Below, piece by piece: positions 27,173 through 36,742 of a stretch of DNA of 36,742 bases (within the stretch, counting starts at the first letter, position 1; every line of letters begins with the position of its first letter). This DNA is from Candidatus Stoquefichus massiliensis AP9. Its GTDB lineage: Bacteria > Bacillota_I > Bacilli_A > Erysipelotrichales > Coprobacillaceae. A model generated the notes under the pieces. That model had not been told where the DNA came from. It was given only the letters and a program-made list of their open reading frames with translations, and did not search any database. The translations under genes and the position numbers were made by a program. Location of the stretch: NCBI RefSeq assembly GCF_000455285.1, contig NZ_HG005287.1, positions 91,135-127,876 on the forward strand, given 5' to 3'.

Positions 27173-28988
27173 TTAATTGACATTTCTTAATATCGTTGTG
27201 ATGTCTTTCTTTAAAGTATATTGTAATGAAATAATTATTGGGATAATTCTAGTTATTACGATATAAAAAACCACTTTTACAAAAAGTAACACTATGACTA
27301 TAAAAGAAAATTCCAAATGAAAATATAATTTTAAGAATAAAGCCATCAAAATACTTAGTATCATTGTTATAAAAACAAGTGTTTTATTTTCATAATAATA
27401 TAAATGATACAATTGTCTTTTTTCAACTCCATTAATTCTTAAAACACCTATTTCATTTTCCCTTGATTTATTTTGTAATGATTGAATAATATAAGTGATT
27501 ATAACTGTTCCTATAATTAATACAAATTTTAATATTAATATAAATTGCTGAAGTGTTTTTATATTCTCTATCTCATCTCTATAATGATCTCCATGAGATG
27601 ATACCGTTGCATAACTAAACCAATTTTTTATTTCTTTGACTGTTGAATCTATATTTTTAATATCATCACAATAAACAATAAATGCACTACTTGTTTCAAT
27701 ATTTTCTTTTGCTAACATTTCTTTGATCATAGAAGTTGGCATATAGATAACAGCATTAAGATCATCTTGAATCTTATATTGATTAATGGTTTGATTAAAA
27801 CTATATTCTTGATTATTTAATTTTAGTACACTCATAATTGTTATATTTGCATCGATATTATTAATTATATGAGAAGAAACAACACATGTATCTATATCTA
27901 TTTTAGGTAAGATTTTAGCTTGTATTGTTTTATTTTGAATATTGACTATGGCATCTAATTCCCAATAATATTCTACACTTTGAATGTGTTTTATTTCTTT
28001 TAACATATTCATTTGATCATGTGTAAATAATTGACTTGAACCGTTATATGTCGTATGGGGCAATACCTCCATATGTCGTATGGGGCAATACCTCCTTTGT
28101 ATTCACAACAATAATTTCATTAGTTTTCAATGATTGATATAGTGATTCTTGTTGGTTTAATAACATATCTAAAATCATTGGAACAACACATAATATAATA
28201 ATAACAATAACATATAAGATATTTAACCCATAATGTATTTTATCGTGATGTCTCTTTTTATAAATATGATAAAATAATTTATTTATTTTTTGGTCTTTTT
28301 TTATCACAACTGATTGTGTTTTATCCATAGTATCTTTCTTCATAATCAAATAAGAATGATCAATGATATATAAAACATCAGCATATTCAGCAACAAATGA
28401 ATCATGTGTTGCAATGACAACCATCTTATTATACTCTTTGCATATATAACGAAGAATATTCATAAGTTCTTTTGCATTTTCTTGATCTAGAGCTGATGTT
28501 GGCTCATCGCATATAATCAAATCTACATCTTTAATCAAAGCTAATAATAATGCAAATCTTTGTCTCTCACCCCTAGATAAAGATAAAGGCATTTGATCTA
28601 ATGAAACATTTAATTTTAATTGATGAAAATATTGATTAACCTCTGCACTATTATACTCTTGACCAATTAATGCAAACATACATGCAATATTATCTTTTAA
28701 AGTTAAACTTTCACTAATAAGTTCTAAATCCTGTAATATAAAACCTATACGTGTTCTTCTTATTTCTGCTCGTTGCTGATCTTTTAACTTATCAATTCTT
28801 ATATTATCCCACTTATATTGAGCATTTGTATAATGTGATAAAAGAGCAATTTCATGTAGTAAACTCGTTTTCCCCGAACCACTTTCCCCCATAATAACAT
28901 GAATATTCCCATCATAGATATGCATTGATTCATTAACTAACAATACTTGGTTTTGAATTTTCAAATGCAAATTATCTAATGTTATCAT
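27173..28988 (-). pseudogene. ABC ATPase-permease fusion split by a 25-bp tandem duplication
   Basis: The 5' frame (to 28044) has Walker A GESGSGKTS, signature LSRGERQR, Walker B LIICDEPTSALD and H-loop ATHD, then a linker and one membrane segment. It ends EVLPHTTYGGIAPYDI. The second frame (28072-27173) repeats EVLPHTTY and continues with an extracellular domain, three membrane segments and ENEIGVLRINGVEKRQL, a MacB/FtsX-type permease motif. A perfect 25-bp tandem repeat (28046-28095) accounts for the shift: removing one unit gives one continuous frame of about 600 codons. Such fusions act in peptide export or antimicrobial-peptide immunity. ATG 28988 has GGAG 7 nt upstream. The two halves could still be made separately, but no ribosome binding site suits the second. 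Confidence 0.85.
28046..28095 (-). repeat. Perfect 25-bp tandem duplication in the ABC gene
   Basis: Two identical 25-bp units, 28046-28070 and 28071-28095; each starts on the minus strand GGAGGTATTGCCCC. As 25 is not a multiple of three, it shifts the frame. Confidence 0.95.
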
Positions 28989-28999
28989 AGGCATACTCC

Positions 29000-29040
29000 T
29001 TCAATATTTTGTTTGTGAATTTTTAGTTTTGTAAAATTGT
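29000..29040 (+). repeat. 41-bp direct repeat, right copy
   Basis: Exact match to 23856-23896, 5,144 bp away. It ends one base into the ribosome binding region of the ABC gene. Confidence 0.9.
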
Positions 29041-29183
29041 TTATATATTATTTCGTATTTCCATAAAAACCACTTTATTATTAATAATTCCCTCATTTCT
29101 ATCATGAGATATAAAAACTTTAAACCCAATATCTTCCCTTAAACTTTTTTTGACCCATAATTCTATAAACAAAAAAACTCACA
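29041..29183 (-). other. Probable decayed coding segment
   Basis: No intact gene. Each minus-strand frame holds a short coding-like piece: LILLIIVNVSFFVYRIMGQKK (a membrane segment) in one, then SLREDIGFKVFISHDRNEG in another, joined by a shift at an A7 run; a third gives RELLIIKWFLWKYEIIYKQF. This may be the N-terminus of a bacteriocin-associated permease or the lost end of the preceding 7-TM gene. AT richness makes this uncertain. Confidence 0.3.
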
Positions 29184-29789
29184 TTAACTATTATTAGTAA
29201 TATAAGTTTGCAAATATGAAAGTAGAAAATTCACACCTACCCATGCTATCATAGAAATATAAACATAATTAATCATGCCTATATCATAAATTTCTATTTG
29301 ATAAATAATCCTTGTTAATATAATCCATACTATATATGCAACTATATTAAAAATAAATTTCATACCCAGTCCATTATATTTTATACATTTGAAATAATAT
29401 AAACTATAGAATATCATAACACTTAAAAATATTGGCAAAAAATAGAAAATCATATTATTTATTGGGTATATAAACCTATAATATATAAAAATATAATTTA
29501 TAAATTGCACTATCATTTGAAACACAATGACATAAAACACTGCTTTCTTCTTAGTATTAGATAAATATAATGCTAACCCAATATCCAACAAACAATAAAA
29601 ACGATACCATAACTGACTTAAAGTTGAGTTAAGGATAAGCGTTGCTAAAAAATAAACTACTATTACTAAATGAATATTTTTCTTTTTTAAATCTATTGAA
29701 TGAGTTTTCCATAATATAAAAATTAAAAAGATATTTAATAAAATTTTTTCTATTGCAATCCATATCTGATAATTATAACCATTATCCAT
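29184..29789 (-). CDS. Seven-TM membrane protein, AgrC-sensor-like layout without kinase
   Basis: 201 aa, with seven hydrophobic segments (about 10-27, 40-55, 60-78, 85-106, 111-135, 145-163, 172-193) and almost no soluble part. ATG 29789 has GGAGGG 8 nt upstream, so translation starts here. Size and topology resemble the sensor half of AgrC-type histidine kinases, but the protein stops at LQTYITNNS where a kinase would begin. It could be a truncated sensor, an immunity protein or an unrelated membrane protein. No sequence motif settles this. Confidence 0.5.
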   Translation of the reverse strand: MDNGYNYQIWIAIEKILLNIFLIFILWKTHSIDLKKKNIHLVIVVYFLATLILNSTLSQLWYRFYCLLDIGLALYLSNTKKKAVFYVIVFQMIVQFINYIFIYYRFIYPINNMIFYFLPIFLSVMIFYSLYYFKCIKYNGLGMKFIFNIVAYIVWIILTRIIYQIEIYDIGMINYVYISMIAWVGVNFLLSYLQTYITNNS

Positions 29790-30010
29790 GTTTAAAAGCC
29801 CTCCACATTATCTATTTTGATTTGGAATATCCCTTACTTATGAAATCTAACGTTAAACTTATTTAACAATATTTTTATGTACTAAGAATAAATGTATCTC
29901 TATCCTAACTATAGGTAAGGTTTTGAAGTTATCTCCACCTTTTTCGCAGTTCTACACCATACAAGAATGTTTCGCACCTTTAGTCTTATGTTGTATCCCA
30001 TTATCAATCA
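29790..30010. other. Intergenic region without a recognised gene
   Basis: No ORF with a ribosome binding site. Positions 29905-30003 have a higher G+C content than the flanks and short Pro/Cys-containing frames broken by stops on both strands, which may be the remnant of an unrelated gene or mobile element. No terminator identified. Confidence 0.4.
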
Positions 30011-30409
30011 TTATACTTTTACATTCTTACTTCCATACCAATCATCAACACCATCTTCATATATAACCAAAAACTGAACATTAACAGTTTCAGAATCCAA
30101 CATTTCTGCATTTGATCTATAGACTTTACTATTGGTAGGTCCATTGTATTTATATGTCAAGTTTGTAACACCCACACAATGACCATTAATATCATTGTAC
30201 TTATACTCAATCTCTGCATCAATATAAAAATTTTTGCCTACTTTATCAAATTTACCTTCCACTCTAACTTTTTTGGTAGCAATACCATAATTTAGTAAAG
30301 ATATATTATAATCTTCAGGATCATATAAAGCATTTACTTTAACTATGTTTGATAATAATAAATTCCCTGATAAAAACAATCCAACTACTAATATAATAAT
30401 TTTCTTCAT
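30011..30409 (-). CDS. Small secreted protein of unknown function
   Basis: 132 aa. MKKIIILVVGLFLSG and the following hydrophobic stretch end in KVNA, a good signal peptidase I site near residue 27. The mature part (about 105 aa) is hydrophilic, probably beta-rich, with one Cys, and has YNISLLNYG and NVQFLVIYEDGVDDWYG. No family recognised. The ribosome binding site is weak (AGAAAG). It lies between the agr locus and decayed genes, on the same strand, so agr control is possible but not shown. Confidence 0.6.
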   Translation of the reverse strand: MKKIIILVVGLFLSGNLLLSNIVKVNALYDPEDYNISLLNYGIATKKVRVEGKFDKVGKNFYIDAEIEYKYNDINGHCVGVTNLTYKYNGPTNSKVYRSNAEMLDSETVNVQFLVIYEDGVDDWYGSKNVKV

Positions 30410-30601
30410 CTTTCTATTTAATAAACTTTATATAAATTTATTATTCTCCTTTCATATTTATTATTAAGTTAGTAACTATTTTGAAGAAAGTAATAAATTC
30501 AAGTCCTTAGAATGGACTTATAAGATATTGAATGAATCATAATCTCAAAAATAGTATCACATTATTTTAAAACCAAAACCAATACATTTAAAGATGTTTG
30601 A

Positions 30602-31273
30602 TTAAAAATACAAATTAACATTAGGTTTTATTGGGTCATAATATATTTTTGCTGCTCCCCCATTGTGAATGACTTGACCCCATAAAGTAATTACAAAATT
30701 TTTATAATAAGCATTATATCCGTTATTAATAATCCCATAGTCAGCTGTCACTTTATACCCACAATCTGAAAATGCAGGATATGCATAAACCCTAATAGCA
30801 GGTTGACTTATTGAGGTATATTTACCTGTATTATCATTATAAGATACTCTGCCACATGCATAGTAAGCAAATTCAAATGAAGTAGCATAACCATCTCTTT
30901 TTAAAATTGTATAACATAATGAACTTTCTTTTGATACATTAGTCATATAATATGGAGATATAACGGGCAATTCTTCAATTATACAATTAGCTTCAGTAAT
31001 AAAATTATCAATTATATGATTAAAATTCTTATTTTCATAGTATGTATAATTATCATAATAAAATTGCTTTGTAATATCTTCATCATCGTTATTATAAATA
31101 ATAATATTTTCATTTCCTTCAAACAATGATTGTAGTTTTGCTGAGATTAAAGGGTAATCATTTCCCCAATCTACACTTTCCATTGCAAACACTGCATTTG
31201 TAATCAATGAGCCAAACAACATGCCACTAATTAATAATACTTTTAAAAGTAACACTTTACCTTCTTTTTTCAT
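30602..31273 (-). CDS. Secreted protein of unknown function downstream of agrD
   Basis: 223 aa. A basic start and hydrophobic core end in AVFA at about residue 30, a clear signal peptidase site. The mature chain has three or four Cys, is rich in Tyr and Asn, and ends in YYDPIKPNVNLYF. No family recognised. ATG 31273 has GAGGAG upstream. It is the first gene after agrBD on the same strand, 269 bp away, with no strong terminator between, so it is a candidate agr-controlled effector. The 269 bp hold a single LytTR-like half site (TACGTTAAT on the minus strand) but no clear paired site. Confidence 0.6.
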   Translation of the reverse strand: MKKEGKVLLLKVLLISGMLFGSLITNAVFAMESVDWGNDYPLISAKLQSLFEGNENIIIYNNDDEDITKQFYYDNYTYYENKNFNHIIDNFITEANCIIEELPVISPYYMTNVSKESSLCYTILKRDGYATSFEFAYYACGRVSYNDNTGKYTSISQPAIRVYAYPAFSDCGYKVTADYGIINNGYNAYYKNFVITLWGQVIHNGGAAKIYYDPIKPNVNLYF

Positions 31274-31542
31274 TGGTTTTTCTCCTCTTTTAACTTTGCT
31301 CTTATTTCAATCATCACTGAATCTGATTTTTACTCTTAATACAATCGTTATCTCTTACTTACAATAATATTAACGTAAAACATACCTATTCACTTAAATC
31401 GAAAAATAATCATGTGATATTTATCTATATCTTTATGTATTTGTATTAAGTACACTCTTAATTTATTATATTGACATATGAATGTCTGTAGTGTCTTGTT
31501 TACAAATATAAAGATTTAGATATTCTTAAAATAACCATACAA

Positions 31543-31677
31543 CTAAATCTTCTTCATTTTCTTTAAAACTTTGGGTTCTTTTCCTTGGTATGAACCAGAT
31601 CTTGAAGCTCCACTAATCGCTCCTGCCGCCATAAACACAGACAACAGTGAGATAAATCTTAATAGTTTAACTTTCAT
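31543..31677 (-). CDS. agrD: AgrD autoinducing peptide precursor, cysteine-free
   Basis: 44 aa. An amphipathic N-terminal helix (MKVKLLRFISLLSVFMAAGA) leads to a small Gly/Ser segment, ISGASRSGSY, then QGKEPKVLKKMKKI, which matches the charged xPKxLKK recognition tail of AgrD precursors. The ATG lies 11 nt inside the end of agrB, as in other agrBD pairs. There is no Cys at all, so a thiolactone is impossible. Ser25, Ser27 or Ser29 could make a lactone instead, as in enterococcal FsrD. A ring ending at Tyr30 would have six residues from Ser25 or four from Ser27; the boundaries are inferred. Confidence 0.82.
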   Translation of the reverse strand: MKVKLLRFISLLSVFMAAGAISGASRSGSYQGKEPKVLKKMKKI

Positions 31678-32200
31678 AGTTTCTGATACAAGCAATAATA
31701 AGTATACTGACTATTAAAATAACATATGTAAGAATATTTGCATAATGACTTATATAAGAGAATGTTATAAATCCTATAATAATGATGAGTGATAGAATTT
31801 TATATTTTCTATATTCACTATTATCTAATTCTCTATTTCTTACTGGACTGAATATTATAAATACAAGTATTGCAAATATTTGAATATATAACATCCAATG
31901 ACTATAATATTGAAATGTTATAAGATAAACGATAAATAATGAAACATGTAGACTGATACAACGAAAGTATGTTTGACAATGATATCCACCACTAAACTTT
32001 CTTATAATCCAAAATGCAAGATAATAGATAATTGCATCTTCCAAATGTCCCATTATAAATCCAATACCTAAAATAAGTAGAACATCAATAGTCGTTGATA
32101 TCATGACTTCAATTCCATAACGATGGACTTCAAATTCATCATAACATACTTTCATTTTAAACATATATTGTGTTATTTTATTAGCCAAATCTTGTATCAA
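31667..32200 (-). CDS. agrB: AgrB peptide-processing membrane endopeptidase
   Basis: A 177-aa membrane cysteine protease that cuts AgrD and helps form the cyclic pheromone. The catalytic pair is in GGYHCQTYFRC: His74 and Cys81, with the family spacing of seven. Five or six hydrophobic segments follow. The start is TTG 32200, 7 nt after GGGAGG; the frame is open to 32302 but upstream ATG codons have no ribosome binding site and run through the promoter. It overlaps agrD by 11 nt. The start IQDLANKITQYMF matches AgrB N-termini. Confidence 0.9.
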   Translation of the reverse strand: MIQDLANKITQYMFKMKVCYDEFEVHRYGIEVMISTTIDVLLILGIGFIMGHLEDAIIYYLAFWIIRKFSGGYHCQTYFRCISLHVSLFIVYLITFQYYSHWMLYIQIFAILVFIIFSPVRNRELDNSEYRKYKILSLIIIIGFITFSYISHYANILTYVILIVSILIIACIRNYES

Positions 32201-32222
32201 TATCTCACCTCCCTTTAGTTTT

Positions 32223-32228
32223 ATTATA
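32223..32228 (-). promoter_or_regulatory. -10 box of the agrBD promoter
   Basis: TATAAT on the minus strand, 23 bp before the TTG start. No good -35 at the proper distance, as expected for a promoter that depends on AgrA. Confidence 0.6.
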
Positions 32229-32257
32229 ATAATTTTTAAAGAAAAAGATAGACGAAA

Positions 32258-32286
32258 AGGACGTTTGGTTTCTATAGAGGACGTTT
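32258..32286 (+). promoter_or_regulatory. Putative AgrA (LytTR) binding site upstream of agrBD
   Basis: Two identical 9-bp direct repeats, AGGACGTTT, at 32258-32266 and 32278-32286, with an 11-bp gap. LytTR regulators bind paired 9-bp repeats about two helical turns apart. They lie just upstream of the -35 position of the agrBD promoter, which fits pheromone-driven autoinduction. Confidence 0.7.
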
Positions 32287-32308
32287 TACATATTTTAGTC
32301 AAAAAACA

Positions 32309-33514
32309 TTACTGCATGAGTAATGTTATCTGAATTTCAAACTCTTCTTGATTATGTATGATGTTCATTACACCTTGATATTTTTTTACAATTCTATTTA
32401 TACTTTTTAAACCAAAACCATGACTTCGATGATCTTTTTGAGTAATCAATTCAGGAGATGATTTCTGTGGATCAACTGTATTACTTACTTTAATATGCAA
32501 TAACATATTATCCTGCACTATATTTATTCTAATTAAACCTTCATTATTATTTTCAATTGCATTATCTAACACATTAGACAAGAGTGTATTTAAGTCATAA
32601 TCGTGAATGAAATTAATATCATGAATAGAAATGACAGATTCTACTTTTATATTTTTTGAATAAGCTTCTAATATTTTCCCATTAATTACTGTATTGAGCA
32701 ATTTGTTACGAGTAGAGAATAATGTAGGCATACTATCTACAATATCTTTCTTAGAGTTTATAAGTTCTTGAACTTTACTATAATCTTTTTCAGTTAAATA
32801 ATATTGTAATAATTGATAATCATGTTTAAGATCATGTTTTGTTATTTTTAATTGTTCATATAAATAAAGTAATGTTTTTTCATTTTTTATATCTTGTTTA
32901 AGTTTTTCATATTCCTGCTGATCTTTATTCATTTGAGCAACCTTTGATAAAATGATCAATAACCCTATCACACAACAAAATAACATGACAAATAAAATAA
33001 TTAATTCAGGTATCTCTACCTTTAATATAAGATAAACCTGTAATAAATTTTGCATAATAAAATGTAGTCCAAATAAAATAATTCCTATAACTAAGTATAT
33101 ATTTTGATTATAAAAGAATATTTTATTTTTCATATATTTTATCAATAACAATGCCAATATAAAATATATAATCTTTCCTAAAGGATGAACAATCTCTAAA
33201 TGAAATATATAATTAATCATGACAGATAAAATAATTGTAAATGAATTAAATACATTCTCGAAGCAACATATAAAAAATAATTCATTTAAACTCTCTTCTA
33301 CAAATAGATATGAAAGGGAAACATTACATATTATTAAAAATGATGTAAGAAAGATATCATACATATTGATGTAATTAGATAATGTAATGATTGTTAAATT
33401 CAATATACATATTAAAAAACGATATAATCCTTTTTTTCTTTTGATATGCACAAGTGAAGTAAGAAACCATGTTAATAAAATAGATTCAAATACATTAATT
33501 ATTATCCATTCCAT
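32309..33514 (-). CDS. agrC: AgrC-like pheromone-sensing histidine kinase
   Basis: 401 aa. Residues 1-190 carry six or seven membrane segments that sense the peptide. Residues about 195-401 are an HPK10-type kinase: ITKHDLKHDYQLLQYYL with the phosphorylated His (His227 or His231), the N box LLSNVLDNAIENN (about 311) and a G box HGFGLKSINRIVKKYQG. The start codon lies 13 nt inside the end of agrA. The protein appears intact and is likely the receptor for the AgrD product. Confidence 0.9.
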   Translation of the reverse strand: MEWIIINVFESILLTWFLTSLVHIKRKKGLYRFLICILNLTIITLSNYINMYDIFLTSFLIICNVSLSYLFVEESLNELFFICCFENVFNSFTIILSVMINYIFHLEIVHPLGKIIYFILALLLIKYMKNKIFFYNQNIYLVIGIILFGLHFIMQNLLQVYLILKVEIPELIILFVMLFCCVIGLLIILSKVAQMNKDQQEYEKLKQDIKNEKTLLYLYEQLKITKHDLKHDYQLLQYYLTEKDYSKVQELINSKKDIVDSMPTLFSTRNKLLNTVINGKILEAYSKNIKVESVISIHDINFIHDYDLNTLLSNVLDNAIENNNEGLIRINIVQDNMLLHIKVSNTVDPQKSSPELITQKDHRSHGFGLKSINRIVKKYQGVMNIIHNQEEFEIQITLLMQ

Positions 33515-34197
33515 ATTTTATTACCTCGATATCTTAAATAAGCATTAACAAAAGGAACTTCACTATTTCGTGTAAATTTCAGTTTATCTCCATTTGACAT
33601 CAATATTCTTTTTTTATCAAAGTTCAGTATATGATCAAAATTAATAATCGTAAATGAATTCAATCTATAAAAATATTTTTCATCTAATAAAACCATTACT
33701 TTTTTTAGACTCATATAAATTGAATATATACTTTTTTGTGTATAAATATTTATTTTATTTTTATTTGATGTTATATAAATAATATCATGTTGTAACAGTT
33801 CAATGTTTTGATTAGCATATGAAATAGTTATAGTTGCAGAACTATGTGATATAGATTTTGTGTATTTCTTATAAAATGCAGTTAAATCATCATGAAGTTT
33901 TTCTTTTCTGACAAAAAAGAAACTTTCTTGTTTGTAACTATCATAAACAAAATCATTGAGACTTGAGATATACACAAGGACCGTATCTGGACAAAATTCT
34001 AATATTTTTTCTCCATATTCAAAACTTTTATCTAATCCTAACATCACATCTAAAAAAACAATATCATATTGATTTTGATAAAATTCTAGATATGCACTAG
34101 CAAATATATCTATTTGTGCTGATGGATAAAATTTTATAAGTTTTTCTTTTAAGATTAAAGCGAACTCTTGTTCATCATCTATAATCGCTATCTTCAT
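33502..34197 (-). CDS. agrA: AgrA-like LytTR response regulator
   Basis: 231 aa. The receiver domain shows the acidic pair Asp7-Asp8, the phosphorylated Asp50 in DIVFLDVMLG, and the Lys region FFFVRKEKL near 95. Residues about 125-225 are the LytTR domain, with a LQHDIIYITSNKNKINIYT strand set and FYRLNSFTIINFDHIL. ATG 34197 has AAGGATG upstream. It leads the agrAC operon, 67 bp behind ddl, and probably activates agrBD through the repeat at 32258-32286. Confidence 0.9.
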   Translation of the reverse strand: MKIAIIDDEQEFALILKEKLIKFYPSAQIDIFASAYLEFYQNQYDIVFLDVMLGLDKSFEYGEKILEFCPDTVLVYISSLNDFVYDSYKQESFFFVRKEKLHDDLTAFYKKYTKSISHSSATITISYANQNIELLQHDIIYITSNKNKINIYTQKSIYSIYMSLKKVMVLLDEKYFYRLNSFTIINFDHILNFDKKRILMSNGDKLKFTRNSEVPFVNAYLRYRGNKIWNG

Positions 34198-34237
34198 ATT
34201 ATCACATCCTTTTTCTTATTTTACCATTTTTTATACG

Positions 34238-34265
34238 AAAACAAAAAGATGTTTTTCAACATCTT
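34238..34265 (-). terminator. Terminator of the murF-ddl operon
   Basis: Stem AAGATGT/ACATCTT (34246-34252 with 34259-34265), 6-nt loop, then TTTTGTTTT on the minus strand; overlaps the ddl stop codon. Confidence 0.8.
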
Positions 34266-35301
34266 ATCTATCAAATGCTAATTCAATTAATTTATCTATA
34301 AGGTCACAATAAGGGATTCCATAGTCAGCCATTAATTGTGGATACATTGAGATTTTTGTAAATCCAGGCATTGTGTTAATTTCATTAAGATAAACACGAT
34401 TTGTTTTCTTGTCTAAAAAGAAATCAACACGAGAAAGTCCATGTCCATCAATAGCTTTAAAGACTTTAAGAGCATAGTTTCTAATTTCTTCTTGAATCTT
34501 TTCATCAACTAATGCTGGAATACAAGTTTTACTCTCTTCATCTTCATACTTAGATTCAAAAGTATAAAATTCTCCATGAGGCATAATTTGTCCTACACGA
34601 GAGACTACGGGATCATCATTCCCTAAAACTGCTGTTTCAAGTTCAATGCAATCTATACATTCTTCAATAACAATATGACTATCGTACTGTGCTGTTTCAT
34701 TTAATCTTTCATAGAACTCTTCTTCATTGTCTACTCTATAACAGCCAACACTTGAACCTGAACGACTGGCTTTCATAAAACATGGGAATCCCATTGTGTC
34801 TTTGACTGCTTTAATGATATCTGTAGATTCATCAAACTGGTTGTTTACAGCGACCATTGTTCCATCATATCTTTTTTTTACATATAAAGATTTGACTTGT
34901 GGAATGCCAACAGTTTCTAAAATCTTCTTTGTATAGATTTTATCCATAGCAACTGCTGATCCCATTGTCTTACATCCAACATAAGGAACTTGAGCAAGTT
35001 CTAATAATCCCTGTATTGTTCCATCTTCACCATACTTTCCATGCAAAACTGGAAAAACAACATCATGTTGTTTGAGTAGTCCATAAATATCTTGAATAGG
35101 TTCTGAATTTTCTAACCATGTCTCTTTTGCAAAATCCTCTTGGCTTTGATCTAGAAGATACCAGTTTCCACCTTGATCAATACCAACTACTGTTAATTCA
35201 TATTTATCTTTATGAATATTTTTTAATACTGAAGTACAAGACATTCTTGAAATAATATGTTCAGTTGACTGTCCTCCACAAATGATTAACAACTTCTTCA
35301 T
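34264..35301 (-). CDS. ddl: D-alanine--D-alanine ligase
   Basis: A 345-aa ATP-grasp enzyme that makes the D-Ala-D-Ala dipeptide used by MurF. It has GGQSTEHIISRMSCTSV (family GGxSxEHxxS), HGKYGEDGTIQGLLEL, the ATP loop SRSGSSVG and the metal-binding ending NEINTMPGFT. Length is normal. The start follows the murF stop directly, so translation is coupled. Nothing suggests a D-lactate (Van-type) ligase, though the specificity residues were not aligned. Confidence 0.94.
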   Translation of the reverse strand: MKKLLIICGGQSTEHIISRMSCTSVLKNIHKDKYELTVVGIDQGGNWYLLDQSQEDFAKETWLENSEPIQDIYGLLKQHDVVFPVLHGKYGEDGTIQGLLELAQVPYVGCKTMGSAVAMDKIYTKKILETVGIPQVKSLYVKKRYDGTMVAVNNQFDESTDIIKAVKDTMGFPCFMKASRSGSSVGCYRVDNEEEFYERLNETAQYDSHIVIEECIDCIELETAVLGNDDPVVSRVGQIMPHGEFYTFESKYEDEESKTCIPALVDEKIQEEIRNYALKVFKAIDGHGLSRVDFFLDKKTNRVYLNEINTMPGFTKISMYPQLMADYGIPYCDLIDKLIELAFDR

Positions 35302-36648
35302 TTATTTTCTCTCCTTTAAAAACTCAACAACTTCTTTAAGATGCATTCCATTTGATCCCTTAATTAAAAGAACATCATTCTCTTCTAATAATTCATCTAA
35401 ATAGTTTTGAAGACTTTGATTATCTTCAAAATGATAAGCTTCCATTCCTAACTCTTGTGCCTTATCGACAATATACTGACTAGCCAAACCAACACATAAA
35501 AGTTCATCAATTCCTTTTTCTACAATATATTCTCCCACTTCTTCATGAAGTGCTTTTTCATATTCACCAAGTTCTAGCATATCTGCTAAAACAGCAATCT
35601 TTCTATTTGTATATTGAGATAAAACATCTAAACTAGATTTCATTGAATCTAAATTCGCATTATACGTTCCATCAATAATCTTGATTCCATCCTTAAGTTC
35701 AATAATATCCATTCTATTTTTCGTTAATTCAAAATGTTCAACACCTTGAATACATAATTCCATATCAATTCCTAATGATAAGCCTATTCCAATCGCAAAC
35801 AATGCATTATATACAAAATGTTCACCTGATACAGGAACATGCACATGATATGTCTGTCCTTGATAATCTATATCAAAGTAAGATTCTTCTAATTTTAAAT
35901 CAACATGATAAGCTTTTAAGTCACAACCTTCATTTTGCCCTACTCGCAATAACTGATAACTATGTTCCTTAATTGTATGAAGCATATCATTATCACCATT
36001 AATCACTAAAATACCATTTTCTGATAACGCATCAACAATTTCCATCTTTGCTTTTAAAATATTTTCTCTTGAACCCAATTCTCCAATATGTGCTGTCCCA
36101 ACATTTGTAATAGCTGCAATATCAGGTTTCGCAATACGAGTTAAATGATGAATTTCACCTAAATGATTCATACCCATTTCTAATATCATGACTTCTTCAT
36201 CTATATATCTTAATATTGTTAATGGTAAACCAATGTGATTATTATAATTTCCTAAAGTTTTTAATGTTTTATATTTTGTAGACACAACAGAATAAATCAT
36301 ATCCTTAGTACTTGTCTTACCAACACTACCCGTAATCCCAACAACCTTGACATTGCGATGTTCTCTTAAATAAGTTGCCATGTCTGTTAAAGCTTTTAAT
36401 GTATCTTCTACAAAAATCACATTCTTATCAGGATAATTAATAGTATGTGATGTAATCACTGAACTTGCACCAGCTTGAAAGGCTTGTTCAATATAATCAT
36501 GTCCATCTACCTTTTCACCAATTAATGGAATATACATATCTCCAACTTGTATTTTTCTTGTATCTTGCGTAAAACCATGAATATCATCTTCTAAATGACC
36601 ACTCAACAATTTCCCATTAGTCGCTTCTATAATCTCTTTTATTAGCAT
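35302..36648 (-). CDS. murF: UDP-MurNAc-tripeptide--D-Ala-D-Ala ligase
   Basis: A 448-aa Mur ligase that adds D-Ala-D-Ala to the UDP-MurNAc tripeptide in the cytoplasm. The N-terminal domain starts with SGHLEDDIHGFTQDTRKIQ; the P-loop is GITGSVGKTSTKDM (from about residue 105). TLGNYNNHIGLPLTIL and EMGMNHLGEIHHLT are MurF hallmarks, and DGTYNANLDSMKSSL lies in the C-terminal third. ATG 36648 has GAGGGAAA upstream. It forms an operon with ddl. Confidence 0.94.
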   Translation of the reverse strand: MLIKEIIEATNGKLLSGHLEDDIHGFTQDTRKIQVGDMYIPLIGEKVDGHDYIEQAFQAGASSVITSHTINYPDKNVIFVEDTLKALTDMATYLREHRNVKVVGITGSVGKTSTKDMIYSVVSTKYKTLKTLGNYNNHIGLPLTILRYIDEEVMILEMGMNHLGEIHHLTRIAKPDIAAITNVGTAHIGELGSRENILKAKMEIVDALSENGILVINGDNDMLHTIKEHSYQLLRVGQNEGCDLKAYHVDLKLEESYFDIDYQGQTYHVHVPVSGEHFVYNALFAIGIGLSLGIDMELCIQGVEHFELTKNRMDIIELKDGIKIIDGTYNANLDSMKSSLDVLSQYTNRKIAVLADMLELGEYEKALHEEVGEYIVEKGIDELLCVGLASQYIVDKAQELGMEAYHFEDNQSLQNYLDELLEENDVLLIKGSNGMHLKEVVEFLKERK

Positions 36649-36678
36649 AAAATTTCCCTCATTTTTAATATATGCCCT

Positions 36679-36684
36679 ATTATA
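36679..36684 (-). promoter_or_regulatory. Extended -10 box of the murF-ddl promoter
   Basis: TGATATAAT on the minus strand, with the TG extension, 31 bp before the start codon. The -35 is weak. Confidence 0.6.
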
Positions 36685-36742
36685 TCACAGAATGCCACTT
36701 TAGAAAGCCTAAATTTATTTTAATTTTACTTCTAATTGAACT

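Follow-up and report, generated by a model that had tools for sequence, protein, structure and literature searches.

An agr locus with a cysteine-free AgrD and A-C-B-D gene order in Candidatus Stoquefichus massiliensis AP9: a probable serine-lactone autoinduction circuit

How the pheromone ring is closed when the AgrD precursor has no cysteine was the question raised by an agr locus of Candidatus Stoquefichus massiliensis AP9 (Coprobacillaceae). The locus was explored in a stretch of 36,742 nt, which is referred to as the window and within which all positions are counted. The results favored a complete agr autoinduction circuit that probably functions and is of the serine-lactone type, with a probability of about 0.78.

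Layout of the locus and the agrBD promoter region

The four genes occupied the minus strand in the transcription order agrA, agrC, agrB and agrD, and all four ORFs were intact. Their ORF coordinates agreed with a preliminary description of the window, and each gene was identified via domain searches. The features were as follows.

33502..34197, minus strand: agrA, LytTR response regulator, 231 aa (PF04397 LytTR, 47.6 bits; orthologs in L105-L110)
32309..33514, minus strand: agrC, sensor histidine kinase, 401 aa (PF14501 HATPase_c_5, 69 bits; orthologs to E 8e-86)
32259..32286, minus strand: direct repeat AAACGTCC-N12-AAACGTCC, period 20, putative AgrA (LytTR) operator of agrBD (pattern and shuffle tests, counterparts in relatives)
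32223..32228, minus strand: TATAAT, putative -10 box of agrBD, located 30 nt downstream of the second repeat
31667..32200, minus strand: agrB, AgrD protease/cyclase, 177 aa, with H74 and C81 (PF04647, 99 bits, cut-off 23)
31543..31677, minus strand: agrD, pheromone precursor, 44 aa (TIGR04223, 29.3 bits, curated cut-off 19, E 7e-7)
31591..31605, minus strand: predicted ring Ser25-Arg26-Ser27-Gly28-Ser29, lactone bond between Ser25 O and Ser29 C=O, with Tyr30 as the next residue (column alignment; same spacing in the Clostridium thermocellum AgrD)

The locus contained an AgrB-family peptidase with a His/Cys pair, an adjoining AgrD precursor of a known family and, by domain matches, an AgrC-type kinase and a LytTR response regulator. 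The GHKL domain of AgrC and the LytTR domain of AgrA scored above their cut-offs, and the receiver domain of AgrA was weak (Response_reg, 17 bits, below its Pfam cut-off). agrA and agrC overlapped by 13 nt, agrC and agrB were separated by a gap of 108 nt, and agrB and agrD overlapped by 11 nt. agrB started at TTG 32200, which was preceded by the Shine-Dalgarno sequence GGAGGTGA. The most likely start of agrD was ATG 31677, which was favored over TTG 31695 because an ATG was identically placed in the G041 ortholog. The Rfam search of positions 28900-36742 returned no match, hence no known RNAIII-like RNA was placed near agr. No solved structure resembling the window AgrB by sequence was found.

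For a LytTR regulator such as AgrA, the expected operator is a tandem pair of sites spaced by roughly two turns of the helix. A LytTR-type direct-repeat sequence was present at the agrBD promoter. The AAACGTCC repeat was the sole match in the window at up to three mismatches (0.10 expected), and a 9/9 repeat in the agrC-agrB gap was reached by 3 of 300 shuffles. The proposal that agrBD had its own promoter was borne out by a perfect direct repeat and a TATAAT box in this gap; the region had no good sigma-70 match and no -35 consensus. A diverged repeat pair occurred at the same place in the A-C-B-D relatives (ATCGTCC and ATTTGTCC in L105; ATTTGTCC and ATTTATCC upstream of agrB in L110), and other agrB promoters carried repeats of their own with a period of 20-21, for instance two copies of CCGAATTTGT in L114. 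Shuffles were often as good as the relatives' repeats taken alone; the support that the relatives lend to the operator comes from position and recurrence, and five of these loci were close kin. By its sequence, the direct repeat fits an AgrA autoinduction site. A pattern search of the genome gave no clear further site of this type (one extra match with two mismatches, against three control matches), and no AgrA target gene is named because nothing exceeded the control.

The A-C-B-D order, described earlier as differing from BDCA, was confirmed, but it was not peculiar to the window, being common to six other loci (L105-L110, in the family genomes G034, G037, G038, G040, G041 and G042). These six loci shared with the window the gene order, an SRxxxY AgrD and a direct repeat before agrB, and differed from it at ring positions 3 to 5. 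Elsewhere in the family, loci showed the order D-A-C-B or had BD divergent from AC, indicating that agr gene order is fluid in the family. The staphylococcal BDCA operon was rejected as a model of the window locus on the basis of the A-C-B-D order.

The residue that closes the ring and the size of the ring

The window AgrD was MKVKLLRFISLLSVFMAAGAISGASRSGSYQGKEPKVLKKMKKI. The earlier claim that it is cysteine-free was upheld, with no cysteine among 44 residues, yet its TIGR04223 score exceeded the curated cut-off. An amphipathic helix had also been described; a simple moment test gave no support for it, as the hydrophobic moment was 0.18 and two thirds of the shuffles were equally high. The segment is a basic-then-hydrophobic leader.

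AgrDs were collected from 43 genomes of Coprobacillaceae and from 392 genomes sampled across the phylum. For the alignment, an HMM was trained on confirmed AgrDs, and the column of Ser25 was read. Among the distinct AgrDs, this column held serine in 34, cysteine in 15 and threonine in 4, with one further cysteine row misaligned by one place. Within the family (43 genomes, rows tallied by genome), the counts were 32 serine, 10 cysteine and 3 threonine. Serine closure, considered a minority form in the preliminary description, was hence the majority in this family. Judged by this column, it is the usual form in Coprobacillaceae, and the window locus is not an oddity. Serine occupied the ring-nucleophile column of the window AgrD, and all close relatives of the window AgrB were paired with serine, which strengthened the serine lactone as the likely chemistry. 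The window ring is very probably closed via serine and not via cysteine. Homologues with a cysteine, which the earlier account had named as a possible sign of a mutated copy, did exist, but their AgrB partners lay on the opposite side of the AgrB tree. On this alignment and tree, Ser25 is not a mutated cysteine.

Three serines ahead of an aromatic residue had been listed as candidates for the ring. All three were present, and closure by Ser27 or Ser29 in place of Ser25 could draw on them, but the alignment singled out Ser25. Ring and cut in the nearest relatives read SRIGM|Y, SRWGD|Y, SRWSD|Y, SRWAD|Y and SRIGD|Y, with Ser-Arg and Tyr kept in all, and the relatives varied at position 27 (S/I/W/G) and position 29 (S/M/D/Q), whereas position 25 was conserved. 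Closure by Ser27, named earlier on a par with Ser25, or by Ser29 is thus extremely improbable. It is also very unlikely that the window AgrD has degenerated through loss of a cysteine and can no longer give rise to a cyclic signal. Such decay did occur in a related locus, and the genome has other agr copies. The AgrB scan of named genomes returned one relative only, Longibaculum muris DSM 29487, which belongs to the same family but to another genus. In it, a 130-nt ddl piece was fused, with loss of 16 nt, to the 3' portion of agrB; downstream of this decayed agrB, agrD was still open (48/50 identical), and agrA and agrC were absent from this stretch. The L. muris stretch is a relic of a sister locus. 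However, the DNA identity to the window was 92% over agrD and the agrB end, and the serine ring was unchanged. The four window genes were intact, and all close relatives had serine in the ring column, which also argues against decay.

The size of the ring was read from the spacing to the conserved Pro35, with the nucleophile column at -10 and Tyr30 at -5. In the AgrD of C. thermocellum, a lactone from S25 to F29 is followed by Y30 and P35; it was confirmed by LC-MS/MS, and the linear peptide was inactive (PMC5322536). This shared spacing of residues 25, 29, 30 and 35 predicts a five-residue lactone from Ser25 to Ser29, with the cut before Tyr30. A pheromone ending at Tyr30, as proposed earlier, is less likely on the same grounds. 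The same circuit with a six-residue ring from Ser25 to Tyr30 was weighed as well, because the predicted SRSGS ring was wholly polar and the autoinducing peptides tabulated in PMC12312760 carry hydrophobic ring residues. The absence of a hydrophobic residue is, from the sequence, the most unusual feature of the predicted ring, and Tyr30 would supply a hydrophobic end. Moreover, Tyr30 was nearly invariant in the Ser/Thr AgrDs of the family, and the ring of C. acetobutylicum has six residues; rings of six and nine residues are known exceptions to the usual five (PMC4916163). However, C. thermocellum is cut before Y30 with S25, Y30 and P35 at the same positions, and the tyrosine was constant across serine and threonine rings of very different composition, which fits a cleavage-site residue and not a specificity residue. 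The six-residue ring is therefore considered unlikely, and the five-residue SRSGS lactone is preferred.

The C. thermocellum AgrD Clo1313_2818 resembled the window AgrD in its Ser25 lactone pentapeptide, Tyr30 at the cut and Pro35 (PMC5322536), but its ring ends in Phe29, its gene lies outside any apparent agr operon, and it belongs to another bacterial class. RIPT[STGFF] of Staphylococcus pseudintermedius/intermedius also has a five-residue ring closed by serine (PMC12312760, PMC3673130), as predicted for the window, with a hydrophobic ring end and the BDCA order as differences. The agr2 peptide NSA[SSWVA] of Clostridioides difficile has a serine ring in the table of PMC12312760 and a complete four-gene locus, but its order is BDCA and the rest of its ring is unrelated. 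The Enterococcus faecalis pheromone FsrD/GBAP, QN[SPNIFGQWM], is a serine lactone as predicted here, but with a nine-residue ring. Moreover, fsrD lies within fsrB, whereas the window agrD was an ORF of its own that shared only 11 nt with agrB. This overlap and the spacing that predicts five residues ruled out an Fsr system.

AgrB lineages and the proposed circuit

The claim that AgrB keeps His74 and Cys81 was confirmed, and neither residue varied among 44 AgrBs, be it Cys, Ser or Thr that occupied the ring column of the partner. A maximum-likelihood tree was built for these 44 AgrBs, each paired with its own AgrD. The ring residue changed 4 times on the tree; with shuffled labels, 16 changes were needed on average. 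The Cys-partnered AgrBs formed one side of a branch (support 89/84), and the window AgrB fell inside a group of 12, all paired with serine. The split between Cys and Ser/Thr was not absolute because L117, from another family, had a serine AgrD and an AgrB on the cysteine side; the deep branches of the tree were long. On this basis, it is a tentative suggestion, more doubtful than not, that the AgrBs of Coprobacillaceae comprise a Cys-thiolactone line and a Ser/Thr-lactone line, with the window branch of the latter making fully polar, Arg-bearing rings (SRSGS) and Thr-closed rings arising elsewhere in it. The residues that best separated Cys-type from Ser/Thr-type AgrBs included 39, 36, 78 and 75, in a ranking with ancestry still mixed in. 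Residue 75 (about 31976-31978), beside the catalytic His74, was Cys in 22 of the 29 AgrBs that pair with a Ser or Thr AgrD; in AgrBs with Cys partners it was mostly L, F, A or S. This pattern may reflect mere ancestry.

In the proposed circuit, AgrB Cys81, with His74, would attack AgrD behind Ser29, so that the tail Tyr30-Ile44 is released and a thioester remains. Attack on this thioester by the hydroxyl group of Ser25 would then close a ring of five residues, the lactone SRSGS, which may also carry a short N-terminal tail. Once the leader has been removed and the peptide exported, AgrC would sense it, and phosphorylated AgrA would bind the AAACGTCC direct repeat in the agrC-agrB gap and raise agrBD expression. 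Because the repeat is located downstream of agrAC, the receptor and the regulator could stay constant while the signal is amplified. Cyclisation, ring size, AgrA binding and regulation are all predicted from the known agr systems compared above. Serine closure would be the rule in a gut-associated lineage, and the ring prediction names an exact chemical structure. Furthermore, the natural Cys, Ser and Thr AgrB/AgrD pairs are material for asking how thiolactones or lactones arise from a single family of enzymes.

Other agr copies and a possible downstream cassette

Five agrB copies were found in the 3.5-Mb genome (G000: contigs C16, C4, C3, C11 and C6). Three of the other four had an AgrD nearby, all with serine in the ring column (SRGHQ, SFIGP and SWVWI), and the remaining agrB ended at a contig border. 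At least four Ser-type AgrDs in one genome would suggest several parallel peptide channels, and such copy numbers raise the question of how the signals stay apart.

Threonine and no cysteine was observed in the AgrDs of L091 (G040), L092 (G034), L035 (G010) and L120 (G326), with rings such as TWIWM|Y, TWFGV|Y and TWGGL|Y; in each, threonine took the nucleophile column. These are candidate threonine-lactone pheromones, a type for which a brief search of the literature turned up no report. L007/L058 (G001, same genus) had SCNHQ|Y, with serine in the nucleophile column and cysteine directly after, for which a lactone or a thiolactone would both be possible.

Downstream of agrD, positions 28044-31273 encoded two proteins predicted to be secreted (132 and 223 aa) and a family-less membrane protein, all between agrD and an ABC gene. 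The model nearest to the ABC ATPase was TIGR03608, for the lactococcin-972 exporter, with a score of 150 bits that fell short of the cut-off of 255. The downstream genes were read at G041 and L108. ABC genes and a small secreted ORF also followed agrD in G041, and a bacteriocin-like cassette under agr control is thus possible; it stays a lead because the A-C-B-D locus L108 had no such cassette. The ABC transporter gene (27173-28994) contained a perfect 25-nt tandem duplication at 28046-28095, which shifts the frame and could be decay or a reversible switch; its relative in L110 (55-1842) was one 595-aa ORF.
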